From: Pelagicoccus sp. SDUM812003
GTDB taxonomy: Bacteria; Verrucomicrobiota; Verrucomicrobiia; Opitutales; Opitutaceae
DNA: 64,000 nt
Direction of reading: 5' to 3'
Assembly: GCF_031127815.1 (NCBI RefSeq)
Contig: NZ_JARXHY010000003.1
Location: 248,001 to 312,000 of the forward strand
Part shown: positions 36,920 through 48,266 of the stretch, piece after piece
Layout: each line of letters begins with the position of its first letter
How positions within the stretch are numbered: the first letter of the stretch is position 1
Made by a program: the position numbers and the translations under genes
The notes under the pieces: model-generated
What the model saw: the letters and a program-made list of their open reading frames with translations, nothing else
What the model was told of the DNA's origin: nothing
Databases searched by the model: none

Positions 36920-37660
36920 ATGGAAAAGAGAAACTATCTGATTCTGGGAGCGAGTGGATCGATCGGCAGTGAAACCGCCCAGCTGCTTCTACAGGAGGGG
37001 CATCGCGTCTGCGCGGGAGTGCGGGACCTGGACGAGGCGTCAGCCTTGGACGCTCTCCAGGGCGCGGATTTGGAGTCGTTCGACGCTCGAGACTGGGATT
37101 CGATCGATGCTTTGGTTGGAAAGGCCCAGGAGCGTTATCAGCGCATCGATGGCGTGGCTGTATGCGTAGGGTCGATACTGCTGAAAGCTGCGCACCTTAC
37201 GAGCCGGAAGGAGTTCGAGGACGTCATCGCTCTCAACCTCTCCTCCTGTTTCGCCACGCTGCGAGCTGTGGCGAAACCCATGATGAAGCAAGGTGGATCG
37301 ATCGTGCTGGTATCTTCGGCGGCGGCTCGAAAAGGATTTCCCAATCATGAAGCCATCGCGGCGGCCAAGGCTGGAGTCATCGGTCTCACGCTTTCCGCTG
37401 CCGCGACCTATGCCACCTACGGGATTCGCGTAAACTGCGTGGCTCCGGGGTTGGTGCGGAGCAAGATGTCGCGTGGGTTGACCGAGAATGCGATGATGCT
37501 CAAAGCGTCGCAATCGATGCACGCTCTCGGTCGTATCGGTGAAGCGGAGGAGGTCGCTCGGGCTATCGCGTGGCTGCTAGACGGAAAACAGGGCTGGATA
37601 ACTGGTCAGACGCTCGGCGTAGATGGCGGACTTGGAACGCTGCATAGCAAGAAAGCCTAG
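36920..37660 (+). CDS. SDR-family protein lacking the catalytic Tyr
   Basis: A 246-residue short-chain dehydrogenase/reductase. The cofactor loop GASGSIGSETA, the Ser in VLVSSAAARKG and the Lys150 of AAAKAG are in place, but the usual YxxxK Tyr is Ile146 (HEAIAAAK), so standard catalysis is unlikely or uses another residue. Loss of Tyr is known in a minority of SDR proteins. One base after the photolyase stop; the protein may serve a structural or redox-sensing role in the same stress response. Confidence 0.88.
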   Translation: MEKRNYLILGASGSIGSETAQLLLQEGHRVCAGVRDLDEASALDALQGADLESFDARDWDSIDALVGKAQERYQRIDGVAVCVGSILLKAAHLTSRKEFEDVIALNLSSCFATLRAVAKPMMKQGGSIVLVSSAAARKGFPNHEAIAAAKAGVIGLTLSAAATYATYGIRVNCVAPGLVRSKMSRGLTENAMMLKASQSMHALGRIGEAEEVARAIAWLLDGKQGWITGQTLGVDGGLGTLHSKKA

Positions 37661-37704: not shown

Positions 37705-38247
37705 ATGAAAGGGAAACTACTATGGCTAACTGGAATCATCGCAATGGCAGGGCTGCTCGCCGCCTGCAACACCGGGAGCGTTAAGATGCCGAATCAGGAA
37801 CTTGCAGCGTCCGTAGACCTGAATCGATTCATGGGCACGTGGTACGTGCATGGATACACGCCGACCTTTCTCGACCGAAACGCCTATGGAGCCACTGAGA
37901 CTTACGAACTCAATGAGTCTGGAAAGATCGAGACCACCTACCGATTTCGCAAGGGTGGGCCTGATGGCAAGCTCAAGACCATGACGCCAACCGGTTGGGT
38001 GCATGACGAGAAGACAAATGCCGAATGGCGCATGCGTTTCTTCGGGTTGTTCACGTCGCCTTACTACATATTGTACGTGAGTCCAGACTACGGGGAGACG
38101 GTGATCGGTCATCCGGGCAAGGAGATGGCTTGGATCATGACACGCTCGTCACAGATTTCGGATACGAAGTACCAGACGCTCCGTATGGAGCTCGCTCGTC
38201 GCGATTACGATCTAAGCGAGCTCACACGCGTCGAACACGGAGAGTAG
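37705..38247 (+). CDS. Blc-type outer-membrane lipocalin
   Basis: A 180-residue lipoprotein with leader ending LLAAC (Cys near residue 21) and a lipocalin fold: FMGTWYVHGYTP is the conserved G-x-W block, followed by YELNESGKIETTYRF and a C-terminal LYVSPDYGETVIGHP. Blc-type lipocalins bind lipids in the outer membrane and respond to envelope stress. Located 44 bases after the SDR gene in the photolyase operon. Confidence 0.9.
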   Translation: MKGKLLWLTGIIAMAGLLAACNTGSVKMPNQELAASVDLNRFMGTWYVHGYTPTFLDRNAYGATETYELNESGKIETTYRFRKGGPDGKLKTMTPTGWVHDEKTNAEWRMRFFGLFTSPYYILYVSPDYGETVIGHPGKEMAWIMTRSSQISDTKYQTLRMELARRDYDLSELTRVEHGE

Positions 38248-39412: not shown

Positions 39413-41554
39413 TCATTCCTGTGTGGTATCCGCCTCTTCGTTCGGGTCGGTCGACTCCTCGTAGGTATAGGCTTCCGCTTCGGCTTCGTATCGAAGGATG
39501 TTGTCCATCATCGCGTGAGCCGGTTCCAGTTCGTCGTCCCAGGACAGAGCGTATAGCAGTTCGTTTTTCGCTTCCTCGTAGTTTTGGTTGAAGAAGTAGA
39601 CGTAGCCCAGAACGAAGTGAGCTTTGAAGTCCCGCGGGTAGCGCTCCACCCATTCCTCGAGTTCGTTCGCATGTCGGGCGAAGGAGTCGCTGTCGGAGTA
39701 GATCTCGGAGAGACTCAGTCGGAGGTCCACCCATCCGGGAATGATTTCCATGCCTTTCTTGAGATCGTCGAATGCTTCTCGATAGTCGCCGATCGCGATG
39801 TAGGCCTGAGCTCGCGCGAGATAGAGCAAGCCATTGTCTGGATCGGCGATAATGGCCCGCTTGAAGTGCATAATGGAGTCGTAATATCGGTTCTGGGCGA
39901 AGGAGACATAGGCTTGGGAAATAGGGGTCTTCGAATAGAAGATATCCACTGGAGAACCGCCTGCCAGAAACTCGTCATAAGCCCAGTCCGGGAAGTGACG
40001 GTTGCGGTAGTCGCCAAGGTCGATGAAGAAGAAAAGGCTATCGGACTGGCCGATTCTGTAGTAGGAACGAGGATACGTGAACCATCGGCCTGAGACGTAG
40101 TAGTGGCCGCAATCGTTTCCGTGAACATGGCCGTCGCCGTTCACCACGAGCCAACTGGATCCGTCGTAGACGTGGCCGCAGGTCTCAGAGTGGTAGTGGC
40201 GTTGTGGGAAGTCGTTCCAGCGCCCGTCGTAGAAATAGTGGCCGCAGTGCTCGTGGTGGTGGTGGTAGCGCGGGCGGTTGTGCCAATATCCATCATAGAA
40301 GTAGTGGCCGCAACCGATGTGATGACGATGGCGGCTTCCCGAGTAGGAGAGCCAGATGCCGCCATCTTGAAAGTGGCCGCAGCCGGGTCCATGGATATGG
40401 CCGAGGGTGAAGGAAATCCAGATCCCGTTCACCAATGAATGCCCGCAATGGGCGTGGTGGCGATGAGTGCGAGGAAAGTCGTGCCATCGTCCGTCGAAGT
40501 AGTGGTGACCGCAACCGTGGCCGTGACGGTGGTGAAAGCTCTTCTTGGAATTGTGGTCGTGATGATGCGAAAAGTGCCGCCGGGCTCGATCGTAGCGTTC
40601 GCGAGAGGAATGACGCGCTTCGTCGCGTCGGTCGCGGTAGTGCTTGCGGGCAGTTTCGGAGTCGTAACGGAAGAGCTGGCGTCCGTAGTGGGATGTATCC
40701 ACCACGGTGTGACGATAGCCTCTTCGGACCTCGTCTAGACTGGCTCGATGGTCATCTCGTCCCCTCCAGGAGCGCGTATCATGATCGCGATCGCGTTGGT
40801 GATCCCGATGGTGATGATTTTCCCGGTCCCGATGCCCGTCCCGGTCCCGATGTTCATCTCGGTGTCCGTCGTGATCCCGTCGATCGGGGCGGTTGATCTC
40901 GACCGGGTGTCGATTGGGTATTGGGGGGCCTGCGACCACTGCATTGCGGCGGGACTCAACCGATGGTCCGGAGATGCGTGGACGCTGGTTGCCGTTGTTG
41001 AATTGCGGCTGGCGCTCGTGGTTCTGGTTGCGATGGTCTTGGCGGTTTTGATCGAACCGCCGGTTTTGCGGGAAAGTCGGACCGCTAAGCTGGCGTGAGC
41101 TGGGGCGCGTCTGCTCGGCTGGCGGACTGGGTCTCTGGATTCGCTGAACGGTCGGCGTCTGCTGGTTGGAGGGAACGCCATGCCGCGTGATTTGGTGAGG
41201 TTGAGGGATTCTCGTCGGCGCGCTGACGTTTGCTGGCTGTCGAGATTGCGGCGTCTGAACCTGGGGTCGAGGGGGGAGCGTTCGATGCGGTTGGCTAGGA
41301 GGCGAAGGTGGACGCGGCTGAGCGCGCTCGACAGCGGGGCGGGAAGACGGAGTCTGCCGTGGCGGCTGGGACTGGGTAGTGGCGCGAGTGTGCGAGGACG
41401 GTCGCTGCACATCGGTACGGGTTTGCCCTTGGTTGTGTCGTTCCGGTCGGGCGTCGAGCGGCGCGGAGGGAGTCGCCGCTAGCAGAAGTCCAAGCGCCCA
41501 TACGCTAGCGGTTTTGAGCATCTTGCTCAGTGGGTAGATTCGCTCTTGCTTCAT
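39413..41554 (-). CDS. Secreted Cys-Gly-His repeat and TPR protein
   Basis: A 713-residue protein of unknown function with a signal peptide (about residues 12-35, SVWALGLLLAATPSAPLDA). Residues 40-280 are very rich in Arg, Gln, Pro and His and probably disordered. Residues 348-497 hold seven copies of a 22-23-residue unit CGHxxxxGxWxxxxxxHxHxxx, each with one Cys and several His; this could bind metal or heme. Residues 520-690 contain tetratricopeptide repeats (YLARAQAYIAIGDYREAFDDL, AHFVLGYVYFFNQNYEEAKNEL) and the end is acidic. It is downstream of the MoxR operon on the same strand with about 110 bases between, and ends head-on with the MscS gene. Confidence 0.85.
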   Translation of the reverse strand: MKQERIYPLSKMLKTASVWALGLLLAATPSAPLDARPERHNQGQTRTDVQRPSSHTRATTQSQPPRQTPSSRPAVERAQPRPPSPPSQPHRTLPPRPQVQTPQSRQPANVSAPTRIPQPHQITRHGVPSNQQTPTVQRIQRPSPPAEQTRPSSRQLSGPTFPQNRRFDQNRQDHRNQNHERQPQFNNGNQRPRISGPSVESRRNAVVAGPPIPNRHPVEINRPDRRDHDGHRDEHRDRDGHRDRENHHHRDHQRDRDHDTRSWRGRDDHRASLDEVRRGYRHTVVDTSHYGRQLFRYDSETARKHYRDRRDEARHSSRERYDRARRHFSHHHDHNSKKSFHHRHGHGCGHHYFDGRWHDFPRTHRHHAHCGHSLVNGIWISFTLGHIHGPGCGHFQDGGIWLSYSGSRHRHHIGCGHYFYDGYWHNRPRYHHHHEHCGHYFYDGRWNDFPQRHYHSETCGHVYDGSSWLVVNGDGHVHGNDCGHYYVSGRWFTYPRSYYRIGQSDSLFFFIDLGDYRNRHFPDWAYDEFLAGGSPVDIFYSKTPISQAYVSFAQNRYYDSIMHFKRAIIADPDNGLLYLARAQAYIAIGDYREAFDDLKKGMEIIPGWVDLRLSLSEIYSDSDSFARHANELEEWVERYPRDFKAHFVLGYVYFFNQNYEEAKNELLYALSWDDELEPAHAMMDNILRYEAEAEAYTYEESTDPNEEADTTQE
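40063..40513 (-). repeat. Seven tandem Cys-Gly-His units within the repeat protein
   Basis: Six complete units of 66-69 bases plus a final partial one. The Cys codons of the first and last units are at 40513 and 40111, giving protein positions 348 and 482. Units vary in sequence but keep C-G-H, G-x-W at position 8-10 and H-x-H near position 17-19, so selection on the protein rather than recent duplication is likely. Confidence 0.85.
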
Positions 41555-41664
41555 GGCGGGGTCCTTGGGTTGAAGTGGGCTCGATTTTCGGGCAGGTCGA
41601 CTTGGGCGCGAATGCGGGCCGCGTGACCTTGGGACGAGCGTGTTCAGCTAAGTATTCATTTGTT

Positions 41665-44600
41665 TTAGGAAGATTGCGAACGGTTTGCGTCGTCGGACGC
41701 GGAAAGCTGCGTCGAAGTCGTCTTCAAGTAAGTACGTTTGAACTGCAGCACCTGGTTTGCTAGTTGTTGGACGAATTCGGCGTCTACCGTTTTTCCGTAG
41801 CGTTGCGAGGCGAGCTGTCGGCGCAGGGTTTCGATGCTTGCGGAATCGCTCGTTTGGTTGCGAGCCAGGGACTCCGTCTGAGCCAGCAAGCGTCCGGCGC
41901 GAGCTCTAAGCCGAAGTTCAGCGCTTTGGGGAGCTTTGTTTTTTACGTTTCGCAGGAACGTGATGAAGGGATGGATCAATGCCAAGCCCAGCAGGAGCAG
42001 GATCCAGGCGTGACTTGGGCGCAGACGTCCCGGCTGCTTGGCTGGCTCGTGCGCGAGGGAAGGCTCGACCGGGGCGGGACGCTGCTCTATCGTCGCCTCC
42101 GTTCGCTGACTGTTTGGGAGCGAAACGGGCGCTGGGTCTCGCCCTGAATCGGAGCCCGACGCCCTTTCTTGGGGATCCTGGCTGGATTGCGTGACTGCCT
42201 CGGGGCGCGTTTCCTGCGGTTCTTCTGGGGCGACGGGGTTCGTGGACGCGACGGGAGAAGTCGTCGATGGTTTGGCTTGGCTCATGCCCTCCTTGATCGA
42301 AGCGAGCTGACTTAGCTGATCGAGTTCGGAGCTCTGCTCGCTCGACAGGGAAGGTTCGGGCGATTCGTTGAGCCTTGGCGCTGCGGCGTCCTCGCTCGTC
42401 GCTGGCGCCTTCGATAGTTCGTCCCGATGCAAGGATTCGGCCGTTTCGAGCTGGGCCAGTGTTTGCCGGTTTTCGACCTGGTCGCCTTGAGCGTCGCGAT
42501 TGAGCTGCGCCTCGAAAACGGGAGGCGTGGGATCGAAGCGTATCCATCGATTGGATTCGTCTAGGTACTCAACCCAGGCGTGAGCGTTGAGCTGACGGAA
42601 AACGTAGCGTCGCTTGTCGGGCTCGTATTCGCTGCTTGCGAAGCCGGTAACCACTCGCGCAGGTATTCCGCGCGATCGGGCGAGCATAACGAACGCCGCA
42701 GCATAGTTCTCGCACAGGCCGGGACTTTCGCTTTGCAGCCAACGTACCACGATGTGCCCGGAGCCAGGACGGATGTCCGTCTCGTATGCGTAGGGATGGG
42801 TTTGCGAAAAGTAGCGGGCGGCGTTTCGAGCGAAGATCTGGCGCGAGGCGTCGCCATTTGCGAGCCGCTTGCTGAGTCGTTTCAGAAAGGCGCGGTCCCT
42901 GGCGGCGATAGGGAGCTCGGTGAACGCGGCCTGCTGCTGTTCGCTAAGCTGGCAGGGCAGGCGCTCCTGACTCGTCACGGTGAAATCGGCGCCGCGTACT
43001 TTATAGCTGATCGGCTGATCCGAGCGGGGAGCGGCGATGGTGCGGCGCTCGGGATTTGCTCGCAGGACGTCGTGGTCGATGATCCGGGCGGATTGGAAGG
43101 ACTCGGGAAGCGGCAGAGAGGAAAGGCGTTGCGGCACAGCGGTGAGGGTGAGGCTGGCTGAGGCGTCGCGACTGGTCTGGAAGGCGTTCATCCTTACGAA
43201 GGCGCCGGATTGAGAGGCAGTCGTTTCTGTATTGGAGAGATCGTTACGCTGAGATAGGCCATTGCTTGTGATTGTATCGAGAAAGTCGAGACGGAGGTAG
43301 AGACGCTGGGGCAGGGTACGGGCGGAGTCGATCGTTGCGGTAAGCAGTGGAGCGCTGCTGGTGATCTGTTGCGTATTGCTATGTTGGAGGTCCATCGACC
43401 GTCCTTCGTAAAAAGGCTGCGCCGATTCGGTCCCGGCCCAAGTGTCGTCGTTACTTGCTGAGGCCGGAGACGATGGCGTCGAGCGGATGGCATCGACCAC
43501 CTGATCGATGACGCTTGGGCGGCTCTCGTCTTGGCCTCGGCTTGGCGGCGTATCGTAGCTTCCGGGACTCTCCAAGGTGGTGTGCAGTCCAGCCTTTTCC
43601 TGAGGAACATCCGTTTTGTATTCGCTTGTTTCCGACGGGCGTGAGGGGCTGATGGTGATCAGGGAATTGATATCGTCGTTTCGGTAGCGAGCTCCCGAGG
43701 CTAGGGGGCTGTCGACTTGGGGAACCTTGAAGCGGATTCCCGAGCCCTCCGCGGAACCTGACGCAGGCGCGGGCTGGTCGACCTGGCTGGATTTGGCCCT
43801 CGCGGGCTCCGTGCGGGCCACGGTTTGCTGAAGGTCCTCTCGGGTTGAGCTTGGTGCCTGGTTTTGGGACCCGAACGATGGGAATCTCTCCTCTATGAAG
43901 CGTGTATCCAAATCTCCACTATGAGAAAGCTCTCGCGCTGACTGCGCCATCTGTCGAACATGAAATGGGGCGTTTCGAGCGAGGTCGCCCCAGAACGGCG
44001 TTTTCAGGAGAACCATGAAGAGAAGCGCGCCGAATAGAACGGCCAGCGCGGCGAAGGGAATGGAGCTTCGCAGAAAGGACCCGTAGGACGGCGAGGGCGT
44101 AGACTCTGGCGATTCGTGAAGGGAGCTGTAGTTCTCCCCATGCAGCCCTTTCGAACGTTGGTGCGACTCGATGGCGAAACCAAGGATCGGCAGAGCTCCG
44201 AGCAAGGTGGCGAGCGGTGCGGATTCGATTTGGAAGCTGGCGAAGATCGCCAGAAGCAGGGCGAATGGAAACTCGATGGCTTCCGCCTGGTCGCTCGTCG
44301 CCTTTCGGCGGCTGCGCAGTATTTCGATGAATGCGATGAAGGGAGCGAGCTCAAGTATCTCGCGATAGGGAGGGATGAACTCGTAGCTGATGATCAGATT
44401 TCGAAAGAACAGAAGGGTGGCGATGACGACGAAGATGGTGATGGCTCTGCCAGCGCCCAGTCGCGCGCTGAGCGAGGCCGCGAGCGTCGAGGTGGAAACG
44501 ATGATCGCCCATGGGATCCAGTGGTACTCGTAAAGCGAATACGGCCAGAGCGGGATGAGGAAGAAGAGGTAGAGGCCGACGATGAAACCCCAACGCGCGT

Positions 44601-44796
44601 AGGCGCTAGCGGTCGCTCGCGCTTTGGAGCGACTGTATGAAAGCGCTTTCAGAAACGAGAAGAGAATTGCCGTGGAGAAGGCGAGAACGGCATTGCTGCT
44701 GATGATGGCGAAGGAGATGGTGGCCGAGCTGAGTATCAGCCAGCTCGAAAGTTCCGCATTCGAAAGCGGGGTGGGTCGGTTTAGAATGCGCTTCAT
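41665..44796 (-). CDS. TgpA-type membrane transglutaminase-like protein
   Basis: A 1043-residue protein. Residues 10-280 contain six or more membrane helices; a long periplasmic segment leads to the transglutaminase core (about 640-770) with the Cys in SPGLCENYAAAFVMLARSRGIP, the His in QLNAHAWVEYL and the Asp in WIRFDPTPP. A Pro/Ser/Glu-rich linker and one more membrane helix (HAWILLLLGLALIHPFITFL) follow. TgpA-like proteins act in the envelope with MoxR ATPases and DUF58 proteins. Its start codon follows the DUF58 stop directly. Confidence 0.9.
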   Translation of the reverse strand: MKRILNRPTPLSNAELSSWLILSSATISFAIISSNAVLAFSTAILFSFLKALSYSRSKARATASAYARWGFIVGLYLFFLIPLWPYSLYEYHWIPWAIIVSTSTLAASLSARLGAGRAITIFVVIATLLFFRNLIISYEFIPPYREILELAPFIAFIEILRSRRKATSDQAEAIEFPFALLLAIFASFQIESAPLATLLGALPILGFAIESHQRSKGLHGENYSSLHESPESTPSPSYGSFLRSSIPFAALAVLFGALLFMVLLKTPFWGDLARNAPFHVRQMAQSARELSHSGDLDTRFIEERFPSFGSQNQAPSSTREDLQQTVARTEPARAKSSQVDQPAPASGSAEGSGIRFKVPQVDSPLASGARYRNDDINSLITISPSRPSETSEYKTDVPQEKAGLHTTLESPGSYDTPPSRGQDESRPSVIDQVVDAIRSTPSSPASASNDDTWAGTESAQPFYEGRSMDLQHSNTQQITSSAPLLTATIDSARTLPQRLYLRLDFLDTITSNGLSQRNDLSNTETTASQSGAFVRMNAFQTSRDASASLTLTAVPQRLSSLPLPESFQSARIIDHDVLRANPERRTIAAPRSDQPISYKVRGADFTVTSQERLPCQLSEQQQAAFTELPIAARDRAFLKRLSKRLANGDASRQIFARNAARYFSQTHPYAYETDIRPGSGHIVVRWLQSESPGLCENYAAAFVMLARSRGIPARVVTGFASSEYEPDKRRYVFRQLNAHAWVEYLDESNRWIRFDPTPPVFEAQLNRDAQGDQVENRQTLAQLETAESLHRDELSKAPATSEDAAAPRLNESPEPSLSSEQSSELDQLSQLASIKEGMSQAKPSTTSPVASTNPVAPEEPQETRPEAVTQSSQDPQERASGSDSGRDPAPVSLPNSQRTEATIEQRPAPVEPSLAHEPAKQPGRLRPSHAWILLLLGLALIHPFITFLRNVKNKAPQSAELRLRARAGRLLAQTESLARNQTSDSASIETLRRQLASQRYGKTVDAEFVQQLANQVLQFKRTYLKTTSTQLSASDDANRSQSS

Positions 44797-45849
44797 CTAT
44801 CGGGCGTGGGCGAGGTCCTTGCTGAGGCGTTTTATGACGATGCCCAGAGTCGGATCGGGAAGCACCGAAAGAAAGCGCTGGCCTTCCTCGTCGGGAGGTT
44901 GGGGAGCGGTATCGGACAGCTGCGCGAGCGCCAGGGCGTCGTAGACCTTGATCGAGTCAGCGGGGTTCGAGAGCGGGAAGTAGCTGTCGTCGATCGCCAG
45001 GCCGATGAGGCGTCTTTGCTTGAGTAGGTCTGGCAGGATAGCGACCAGGCGGGAGAGAGCTCGCTCGAATGCGACATCGGTTCTCCAGACTGCGCGAGCG
45101 GTGGTGAAGCGAAGCTCGAAGCGCGGCTCTTTCTGGGCCTTGCTTTCGATCACCATCGGCTTGTCCGCTTTGGCGGTGAGCTTCCAGTTGATGAGCCGTC
45201 GCGGATCGCCTGTCTGGTAGTCGCGAATGAGGGCGCTGTCGGTGTCGTCGGGATGGCGGCTCTGTTGACCTGACTGCGGCTCCTTGCGAGTGGGTTGATA
45301 GCGAAGCACCGCTTGGAGGGAAGTCGGCAAGGCCCGAGGCCAAACGAGGATCGGGTCGCTGACGCGTTCGAGGAGTCGGGTGGCATGGTAGAAGCCGAAG
45401 GGGAAAAAGCAGTGAAGCGTCGCGAGACAGAGCCGATTTTCGCCGCGTTTTTGGAAGGTGAATCTCGACGGTAGCGTGACGGTGGCTTGGGGCAGGATCG
45501 CTCCTTTGTAGTGGATCTTGTGGATACGGTGGTCCTCCGGTTCCTTCACGTCCAAGGTCGGGTAGAAGATCGGGAAGATGCGGCTCCGATTGCTGAGGGA
45601 GACCTGGATTGGCGTTTCCTCCCCGCAGCGAGCTCGGTCGCTGGGCAGGGAGATGCGTGTATCGAGATTTTTGAGACCGCGTTTGGCGAGCAGCCGGGCG
45701 AAGAGGCAGACTGAAAGCAGCAGGCAGGCCAGGATGGCCAGTATGTCGACGCGAACGATGAGGAAGCCGAAAAGGGCCAACCAGCCCAGCTGCCAGACGA
45801 ATCGTCCAGCGTCGGTTGTCTCCAGCGCGACTTTGGCGGTTGCGGGCAC
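44797..45849 (-). CDS. DUF58 protein
   Basis: A 350-residue membrane-associated protein. Two N-terminal helices (FVWQLGWLALFGFLIVRV and ILACLLLSVCLFARLLA) precede a DUF58 domain with IRDYQTGDPRRLINWKLTAKADKPMV, the family hallmark. DUF58 proteins contain a VWA-like fold and work with MoxR AAA ATPases, probably as target adaptors. Start is GTG, three bases after the moxR-like stop; its own stop abuts the transglutaminase ATG. Confidence 0.92.
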   Translation of the reverse strand: MPATAKVALETTDAGRFVWQLGWLALFGFLIVRVDILAILACLLLSVCLFARLLAKRGLKNLDTRISLPSDRARCGEETPIQVSLSNRSRIFPIFYPTLDVKEPEDHRIHKIHYKGAILPQATVTLPSRFTFQKRGENRLCLATLHCFFPFGFYHATRLLERVSDPILVWPRALPTSLQAVLRYQPTRKEPQSGQQSRHPDDTDSALIRDYQTGDPRRLINWKLTAKADKPMVIESKAQKEPRFELRFTTARAVWRTDVAFERALSRLVAILPDLLKQRRLIGLAIDDSYFPLSNPADSIKVYDALALAQLSDTAPQPPDEEGQRFLSVLPDPTLGIVIKRLSKDLAHAR

Positions 45850-45852
45850 GGC

Positions 45853-46797
45853 TCAGTCCTTCAGATGCGGGGCGGGTTGGGCGTTGAGGATTTCTTCGAT
45901 CAGGTGGGCGGCGTTTTGCCAGCCGTACTCGAAATCGTAGCGCTCGCGCAGGCGCAGCCGGTGGGCGAGGCAGGGAACGGCGAATCGGCGGATGTCGTTT
46001 GGTTCCACGAAGCTGCGACCGTCGACCAGCGCCGCCGCTTGCAGAGCGGCTTTGAAGGCAAGGGCGCCGCGCGGACTGATGCCCACCTCGATCTGCGGAT
46101 GCTGACGGGTTCGGGTCACGATGGAGTGGATGTAGTCGTAGATCGACTCCTCCATGAACACTTCGCGCGCTTGGGATTGCAGGTCCGCGATATCGCCCTT
46201 TTCCGCGACTGATTGGATTTCCATGTCGTCGTAGTGCAGGGCTCCGTGGCGCAGCATGTCGCGCTCGCTTTGGTCGTCGGGGTATCCCAGCGAAATGCGC
46301 ATGAGAAAGCGGTCCAGCTGGGCGCTGGGCAGCGGAAAGGTGCTCTCGAAGTCGACCGGGTTTTGGGTGGCGATGACCATGAAGGGCCGATCGATCGGAT
46401 GCGAGACGCCATCGCTAGTGACCAGCCCGCGCTCCATGGCTTCCAGCAGAGCCGACTGGGCTTTGGGCGAGGCCCGATTGATTTCGTCGGCTAGCACGAT
46501 GTTGGCGAAGACAGGTCCAGGAAGAAACTCGAACTGGGAGCGATCCTTCTGGTAGACGGATACGCCCACGATGTCGGAGGGAATGATATCCGAGGTGAAC
46601 TGGACGCGGTTGAAATCGCAGTGGATGGCTCGCGACAGGGCGTAGGCCAAGGTGGTTTTTCCCACCCCTGGCACGTCTTCGATCAGCAGGTGCCCGCCAG
46701 CGATGAGGCAGGTCAGGGTGGCGTCGATGGCGGCGGGCTTTCCGTGGATGTGTTCAGCCAGAGCGTCTCGGATGGCGTTGATGCGTTGCTGCGGCAT
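45853..46797 (-). CDS. MoxR-family AAA ATPase
   Basis: A 314-residue ATPase. Walker A GVGKTT in LLIEDVPGVGKTTLAYALS near residue 44, Walker B in NIVLADEINRASPKAQSALLEAME, sensor 1 in MVIATQNP and an arginine-rich C-terminal lid typical of MoxR. MoxR proteins act as chaperones in assembly of protein complexes. First gene of the MoxR-DUF58-transglutaminase operon (spacings 3 and 0 bases). Confidence 0.95.
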   Translation of the reverse strand: MPQQRINAIRDALAEHIHGKPAAIDATLTCLIAGGHLLIEDVPGVGKTTLAYALSRAIHCDFNRVQFTSDIIPSDIVGVSVYQKDRSQFEFLPGPVFANIVLADEINRASPKAQSALLEAMERGLVTSDGVSHPIDRPFMVIATQNPVDFESTFPLPSAQLDRFLMRISLGYPDDQSERDMLRHGALHYDDMEIQSVAEKGDIADLQSQAREVFMEESIYDYIHSIVTRTRQHPQIEVGISPRGALAFKAALQAAALVDGRSFVEPNDIRRFAVPCLAHRLRLRERYDFEYGWQNAAHLIEEILNAQPAPHLKD

Positions 46798-47756: not shown

Positions 47757-48266
47757 TCAGCTGGCTTCGGCGAGCTGCTCCTCGCTCGGCTCCGGCAGGG
47801 AAAACTCCTTGCCGAATGCGGCGTGCAGCTTCTTGCGAGCCCGGTGGGTATGGCTGAGCACGGTGCCGCGGGGCATGCCGGTGCGGGCCGAAATCTCCTT
47901 GGCGGTGTAGCCTTCGATGTAGTTGAGGTACACGCATTGGCGTTCGACTGGTGTGAGGATGCTCAGCACGGAGTCGAGATCGTGCGACGTGCCAAAGCTC
48001 TCGCTGGCTCCGATCGAGTAGTCGTGAGACTCGAGAGCCTCGAAGCGCACGATCTTGGCTCGCCGGCTGGAGTCGATGAAGAGGTTGCGAATGGCCCGAA
48101 AGAGCAAACCGCGATCCTTTACCTGCTGGTACTTGATCTTGAGCTTCATCCAGGCCTGCTGGGCGAGGTCCTCCGCGTCGTGCATGTCGCGGGTGAAGGA
48201 ATAGGCGTAGTTGCGACCCTGCTGGATCAGCTCGCTGTCAGTCAAAGGATGTGAGGTGGTGTTCAT
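47757..48266 (-). CDS. ECF-type RNA polymerase sigma factor
   Basis: A 169-residue sigma factor with region 2 (AYSFTRDMHDAEDLAQQAWMKL) and region 4 (LTPVERQCVYLNYIEGYTAKEISARTGMPRGTVLSHTHRARKKL). No anti-sigma gene is adjacent, so its control is unclear: it could be regulated at transcription. The upstream gap contains a 36-base perfect palindrome (48497-48532) and, close to the start, tandem GGTCGG units near 48316-48328. Target promoters cannot be read from the window. Confidence 0.9.
   Translation of the reverse strand: MNTTSHPLTDSELIQQGRNYAYSFTRDMHDAEDLAQQAWMKLKIKYQQVKDRGLLFRAIRNLFIDSSRRAKIVRFEALESHDYSIGASESFGTSHDLDSVLSILTPVERQCVYLNYIEGYTAKEISARTGMPRGTVLSHTHRARKKLHAAFGKEFSLPEPSEEQLAEAS

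Follow-up and report, generated by a model that had tools for sequence, protein, structure and literature searches.

The window, i.e., the whole stretch of 64,000 nucleotides from Pelagicoccus sp. SDUM812003 that was analysed, carries on its reverse strand a gene for a 713-residue protein. In the open reading frame (ORF), seven Cys-Gly-His (CGH) units followed by C-terminal TPRs were confirmed, as described in the initial annotation. The features of the locus are as follows.

39413..41554, (-) strand: CGH-repeat protein of 713 aa (ORF; homologs found)
41447..41554, (-) strand: probable N-terminal signal peptide, residues about 1-36 (by eye)
40532..41446, (-) strand: low-complexity basic part rich in Arg, Pro, His, and Gln, residues about 37-341; its length and letters differ among homologs
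40064..40531, (-) strand: seven tandem units HxHxxxCGHx6Wx(5-7), residues 342-497; no family match
39485..39919, (-) strand: TPR domain, residues about 546-690 (Pfam TPR matches; AF2 ten-residue pLDDT means of 64-98)
41633..41658, (-) strand: promoter-like element TGAATA-N16-CGTC, six bases from the transglutaminase stop codon
41665..46797, (-) strand: MoxR (45853-46797), DUF58 (44797-45849), and transglutaminase (41665-44796) genes, judged not to be part of the system

A hydrophobic N-terminus is visible by eye in the homologs as well, and the CGH-repeat protein is probably an exported envelope protein. The basic arm comprises ~305 residues (pI 11.6, 18% Arg) and is presumably disordered; in 13 of 13 homologs, measured from residue 26, it comprises 300-510 residues with a pI of 11.6-12.0. 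The Cys residues of the CGH units are located at positions 348, 370, 392, 415, 437, 459, and 482, at spacings of 22, 22, 23, 22, 22, and 23 residues, and these are the only seven Cys in the protein, whereas 30 of its 64 His fall within residues 346-520. The units are connected by a linker with FFFIDLG to the TPR domain, which belongs to the TPR superfamily on the basis of matches to PF13431, PF07719, PF00515, and others over the gathering cut-off and of its predicted helices.

Repeat unit and its order among homologs

The motif H.H...CGH.{6}W occurs seven times in the protein, whereas shuffling of the repeat region (20,000 times) produced it 0.0002 times on average and never more than once. 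Among the other window ORFs of 150 aa or more, none has two CGH. The formula in the initial annotation placed HxH behind CGH; the repeat length of 22-23 residues was retained, whereas the order was corrected to HxHxxxCGHx6W because HxH precedes CGH. Among 70 units from ten seven-unit homologs, comparison indicates that the candidate ligands and the Trp are nearly invariant: the first His of the HxH pair is found in 70/70, the second in 69/70, and the Trp in 70/70, and, in the same count, the Cys is found in 70/70, the Gly in 68/70, and the last His in 70/70. Units were picked by C[GE]H and cut from six residues before, with unit 7 cut at 22 residues; the Cys and the last His are thus kept by construction, whereas HxH and Trp are independent of how units were picked. 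The count did not include L036, which has six CGH and a fusion of its first two units, the degenerate L037 and L058, or the decayed remnant L074. The real unit spacings (n=60) are 22 residues in 42 cases and 23 residues in 18. In all ten seven-unit homologs, HxH leads unit 1 and is missing after unit 7, which speaks for HxHxxxCGH as the functional loop; three His and one Cys per unit could then serve as ligands.

The order of the units is also kept, with the same-numbered unit as the best match in 472 of 630 comparisons (90 expected). Seven complete units are also present in the L056 copy, located on a metagenome-assembled genome (MAG) contig of another phylum; between this copy and the window the order signal is weak, the same-numbered unit being best in 5/14 comparisons (2 expected). 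The profile search proposed in the initial annotation recovered homologs, and no family match for the units was obtained in Pfam, NCBIfam, or PHROGs. When the TPR part was included in a profile search, the 60 matches listed of 125 were all confined to TPR-side columns. A PDB sequence search with the units gave no match better than E 0.29 (the next at E 1), the repeat region was unmatched in plasmid records, and 37 stretches of IMG/VR viral contigs fit the pattern, none of which (0/37) is a relative. Literature searches found no paper on this protein. Structure prediction of the seven-unit region, also proposed at the outset, was run with AF2; two predictions yielded no confident fold for the units (block pLDDT 23-44), and a β-hairpin was drawn in most units at very low confidence.

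Distribution and decay among relatives

A search of 38 relatives with the repeat and the TPRs matched 17 genomes, only 8 of them beyond the TPRs, namely seven of the eight genus genomes (the window's own included) and G019; the repeat region alone matched the same 8 genomes of 76. A whole-protein scan of genome contigs gave no match, whereas a repeat-profile scan of the contigs gave six loci. Further homologs were found in G282, G347, and G677 and, as a remnant, in G368, all four under the genus label g72, and in G440, an uncultured Opitutaceae (locus L055). Across the order, 11 of 372 genomes match the combined profile at E 1e-9, including G674 (TPR part only) and the G368 remnant. The full seven-unit L056 copy lies on a contig of 4954 bp in a MAG named Sumerlaeota (G439), and among 40 genomes of that phylum the repeat is found only in the MAG itself, G719 matching the TPRs only; this copy may reflect either horizontal transfer or a mis-binned contig.

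Several members of the family have lost units. In G002 (Pelagicoccus), six CGH remain and the first two units are fused. G019 retains one intact CGH unit, with the others altered, and G347, whose frame is still open, has two degenerate units and lacks CGH; the basic arm and the TPRs are kept in both. A broken C-terminal remnant (L074) lies in G368 between the neighbours found in G282, which has the same genus label. Furthermore, G005 is devoid of both the CGH gene and the mechanosensitive-channel gene located between the transglutaminase and lipocalin genes. In the tree of the TPR part, starred support is obtained only for Pelagicoccus against the rest, and the loss of Cys suggested for G347 is based, instead of on the tree, on a genus label and neighbours that it shares with seven-unit genomes. 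The loss of Cys/His sites with retention of the arm and TPRs in G347 and G019 argues against a function limited to metal binding; metal binding seems dispensable in these two genomes, and the Cys residues are not essential to the family.

Promoter-like element and candidate regulon

The element TGAATA-N16-CGTC precedes the CGH gene in 10 of 11 testable Verrucomicrobiota homologs, and the eleventh (G019) has the N15 form. In a count of hexamer-gap-tetramer dyads, which did not cover L056, where the site is missing, or L071, with 15 nt of upstream sequence available, and in which the top three dyads per gap were listed, it ranked top at its gap (10/11); at gaps of 10-12 and 21 no dyad exceeded 2/11, and the three top dyads listed at gaps of 13-19 are shifted copies of the same element. 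Across about 318 kb of context sequence in 15 pieces, the N16 form occurs only before CGH genes, with two other N15 matches, and the pattern TGAATA-N16-CGTC was not found at the L056 copy or the G378 locus described below. In the 1.264 Mb (22%) of the own genome that was scanned, three perfect N16 sites were identified: before the CGH gene, before a gene for a 159-residue protein with a WxxGxW motif, and at a position with no gene start behind it. Sites with at most one mismatch number 64 in 2.53 Mb of strand sequence, i.e., about 0.008 are expected per 300 nt. The CGTC tetramer is described as comparable to many typical ECF -10 regions, and the ECF41 promoters studied have spacers of 16 +/- 1 (PMC3426412); the -10 CGTC and the spacer of about 16 are alike, whereas the -35 TGAATA of the CGH gene differs from the TGTCACA given there for ECF41. 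A -35/-10 element with fixed spacing is shared by the target genes, which is the mark of an RpoE-like ECF regulon, although the targets here are unlike those of E. coli RpoE. ECF regulons of RpoE/SigW-like sigma factors are among the closest systems known.

The WxxGxW gene of the own genome (L215:7778-8257, C2) encodes a secreted protein with a tail rich in His, Arg, and Cys. Fourteen of 38 genomes, G005 among them, carry a homolog (L199-L212), with a strict N16 site at 13 of the 14 loci and a one-mismatch site in G014; comparison thus points to conservation of the element at this second family, for which four scanned copies gave no Pfam match. In some genomes the WxxGxW gene is also linked to regulatory genes. 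It is followed by a small anti-sigma-like gene, with a transmembrane stretch visible by eye, in G000, G006, G019, G013, G014, and G027; of these proteins, only that of G013 matches zf-HC2 above the cut-off, four match below it, and that of G027 has no match. The WxxGxW gene is preceded by an ECF sigma gene in G013, G014, and G027, and among the own sigma ORFs recovered from 30 loci (of 51 matches) the best match of all three sigmas is L109 (36-46% identity). L109 is RpoE-like but not RpoE itself, on the evidence of its TIGR02939 RpoE match (5e-46; 157 bits against a cut-off of 236), and it may drive the CGH gene. A strict N16 scan of the 30 own ECF loci (of 51 matches) revealed no site before sigma genes, and the looser, one-mismatch scan placed CGAATA-N16-CGTC 73 nt upstream of the L109 gene. 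The same sequence lies 99 nt upstream of the G013 sigma gene, and the G014 and G027 sigma genes have no site with at most one mismatch, so that two of four sigma genes tested (G000 and G013) have a candidate site for autoregulation.

Small secreted proteins that are alike by eye are encoded directly behind the ECF sigma genes of G000, G027, and G014 (L170:8884-9318, L213:7607-8029, and L219:8803-9237), and a similar protein is found at L218:6932-7381; in G020 the sigma gene was not found. These four proteins gave no Pfam matches (0/4). Within the window, another ECF-type sigma gene (47757-48266, (-) strand) lies upstream of MoxR and of a gene that is signal-peptidase-like by eye.

Readings of the protein and related systems

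The initial annotation had proposed that the protein is assembled or cross-linked by the MoxR-DUF58-transglutaminase system. The CGH gene is adjacent to this system on the same strand in five of the seven Pelagicoccus genomes with the gene (the window, G001, G002, G003, and G007), where the transglutaminase gene lies directly upstream, and a basic, Gln-rich arm would suit a substrate or partner. However, MoxR, DUF58, and transglutaminase genes were found at 0/4 loci outside the genus (L037, L055, L057, and L058) within 8-9 kb of flank on each side, L056 and L071 having too little flank for the linkage test. In G004 and G006, the transglutaminase gene is 6-7 kb off with two other genes between, and MoxR and DUF58 lie beyond the pieces examined. 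G005 has the MoxR operon and is missing the CGH gene, in G440 the operon (1.06-1.07 Mb) and the CGH gene (about 0.45 Mb) are ~0.6 Mb apart, and the CGH gene has its own promoter-like element. The pairing is confined to Pelagicoccus among the homologs compared, and its absence from relatives is the outcome that the initial annotation had itself named as counting against the idea. Coupling to MoxR was rejected on this linkage test, a role as substrate or partner is now regarded as very improbable, and the adjacency is a tempting clue that misleads here. One of the genes in between in G006 and G004 (L033:3066-8378, L035:11831-17128) encodes a protein of 1765-1770 aa, whose L033 copy has no Pfam match. 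In G019, homologs of the lipocalin and SDR genes on the other flank of the window (37705-38247 and 36920-37660) are located at L037 15796-16290 and 18782-19513, within 8 kb of the CGH gene; this implies that part of the local gene order predates the genus.

Binding of heme, which had been suggested together with metal capture and surface adhesion, would account for many tandem Cys and His; CxxCH is the c-type heme motif, and the protein has none, its seven Cys all occurring as CGH. Since, moreover, no cytochrome domain exceeded the cut-off in Pfam or NCBIfam, only TPR parts of heme-biogenesis proteins appearing below it, a heme or cytochrome-like protein is the least credible reading considered. 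An array of seven solitary Cys could alternatively be sacrificial or sensing under oxidative envelope stress, with His setting their reactivity. The single Cys per unit and the ECF-type promoter are compatible with such a thiol redox role, as some literature ties ECF sigma factors to oxidative stress, but the protein has no CxxC and the near-invariant HxH pair would be left unexplained, so that we consider this improbable. A stronger contender, though still an unlikely one, is that the units act as structural mini-domains, stabilised by zinc or disulfides, and together build a rigid rod at the surface that serves in adhesion or as an envelope scaffold, the metal being glue rather than cargo. 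The low-confidence hairpins of AF2, the stable number and order of the units, and the retention of the hairpin Gly and Trp in both Cys-less G347 units and in one of three altered G019 units agree with a rod; the six CGH of G002, the weak order signal against L056, the odd number of Cys for intra-protein disulfides, and four ligands per unit, which exceed the need of a hairpin, argue against it.

Of the three roles first suggested, metal capture is the best supported, whereas heme binding and adhesion gained no positive evidence. It is favoured because the four potential ligands per unit are nearly invariant and because CGH peptides bind metal. Synthetic CGH peptides bind Co(II) and a Cys-to-Ser change abolishes binding, Zn(II) protects the thiol of a tandem CGH in an antibody from oxidation, and Ni(II) binding is also cited (PMC4946781). 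These designed peptides contain the same Cys-Gly-His, single or in tandem, but, as described there, without a preceding HxH or a Trp hairpin (PMC4946781). A Pfam scan of six window proteins, the CGH protein among them, revealed no metal transporter, metal regulator, or AdcA-like protein. We infer that metal binding is the best reading of the units, and we give an even chance to an explanation in which the protein is exported to the envelope as a member of an RpoE-like ECF regulon and binds metal ions under stress.

The metal-binding protein would be exported and would consist of a long basic disordered arm, seven metal-binding loops, and a TPR domain that may dock it to a partner, each HxHxxxCGH loop being carried by a short Trp-containing hairpin. 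Its gene would be transcribed from its own ECF-type promoter, TGAATA-N16-CGTC, within a regulon of an RpoE-like sigma factor and a zf-HC2-type anti-sigma factor that also makes the small His/Arg-rich WxxGxW secreted protein. Envelope or metal stress would release the sigma factor, the CGH protein would be made, and it could bind up to about seven transition-metal ions, perhaps one per unit and most likely Zn(II) or Cu(I), thereby buffering metal in the periplasm or on the outer surface. A broader proposal is offered only tentatively, as a possibility rather than an expectation: HxHxxxCGHx6W may be an undescribed metal-binding tandem repeat in which each unit forms a complete CysHis3 site by itself on a Trp hairpin. 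Seven such units in a fixed array would then act as a metal reservoir at the surface, deployed by Opitutales-type bacteria, along with the His-rich WxxGxW protein as partner, by means of a dedicated RpoE-like sigma regulon; the response to envelope stress and the sequestration of metal would be one and the same. If true, the known secreted metal-binding repeats would gain a Cys/His tandem repeat whose ligand pattern is unusually regular, and a small Verrucomicrobiota ECF regulon would be proposed, with a sigma gene, anti-sigma, promoter element, and two target families.

Among the known repeats, those of the pneumococcal Pht proteins are the closest comparison drawn here. According to the abstract of PMC3842936, PhtD is a surface protein with proposed short repeated three-stranded units and a His-rich metal motif, Zn is bound by three His and one Glu, and a role as zinc scavenger is proposed. 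Repeated short units with a His-rich motif are common to both proteins, whereas the Pht motif HxxHxH differs from the HxHxxxCGH of the 70 units, and the window protein has no Pht match at E 1 or better in a Pfam scan. The PhtD site as described has no Cys ligand, in contrast to the Cys of every CGH unit; the abstract mentions no TPR, which the CGH protein has; and phtD is in an operon with adcAII, whereas the CGH gene has its own ECF-type element (PMC3842936).

A smaller relative is encoded in G378, a genome of another family of the phylum, as a 135-residue protein that has two CGH units (E 1.6e-10) and no TPRs; by eye its start resembles a lipobox, and its linker is rich in His, Arg, and Lys. 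With a two-unit profile, 22 of 387 phylum genomes pass E 0.05, the best beyond the known homologs and G378 being 0.0057; the full motif was not found in the weak repeat-search matches other than G378. In this locus (L108:4629-8532), the genes upstream on the same strand encode an ECF sigma, a sub-cut-off zf-HC2 protein, two LTXXQ proteins, and a 99-residue His/Lys-rich protein. The first LTXXQ protein scores 32.1 bits for PF07813 (cut-off 24.3) and 28.1 for PF13801, Heavy-metal resistance (cut-off 29.2), and the second is below the cut-off at 20.1 bits. PF07813 and PF13801 proteins, which are of the Spy/CnrX type, are a different family with no CGH unit and were not found beside the window gene. 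Judged by these matches, the G378 locus alone among the contexts examined hints at metals. Its sigma is closest to the own sigma L115 (27%), not L109, and the locus is thus not assigned to the same regulon. The 99-residue His/Lys-rich protein gives a sub-cut-off match to NF052668 VPA0510 (8.7e-8; 32.7 of 95 bits).
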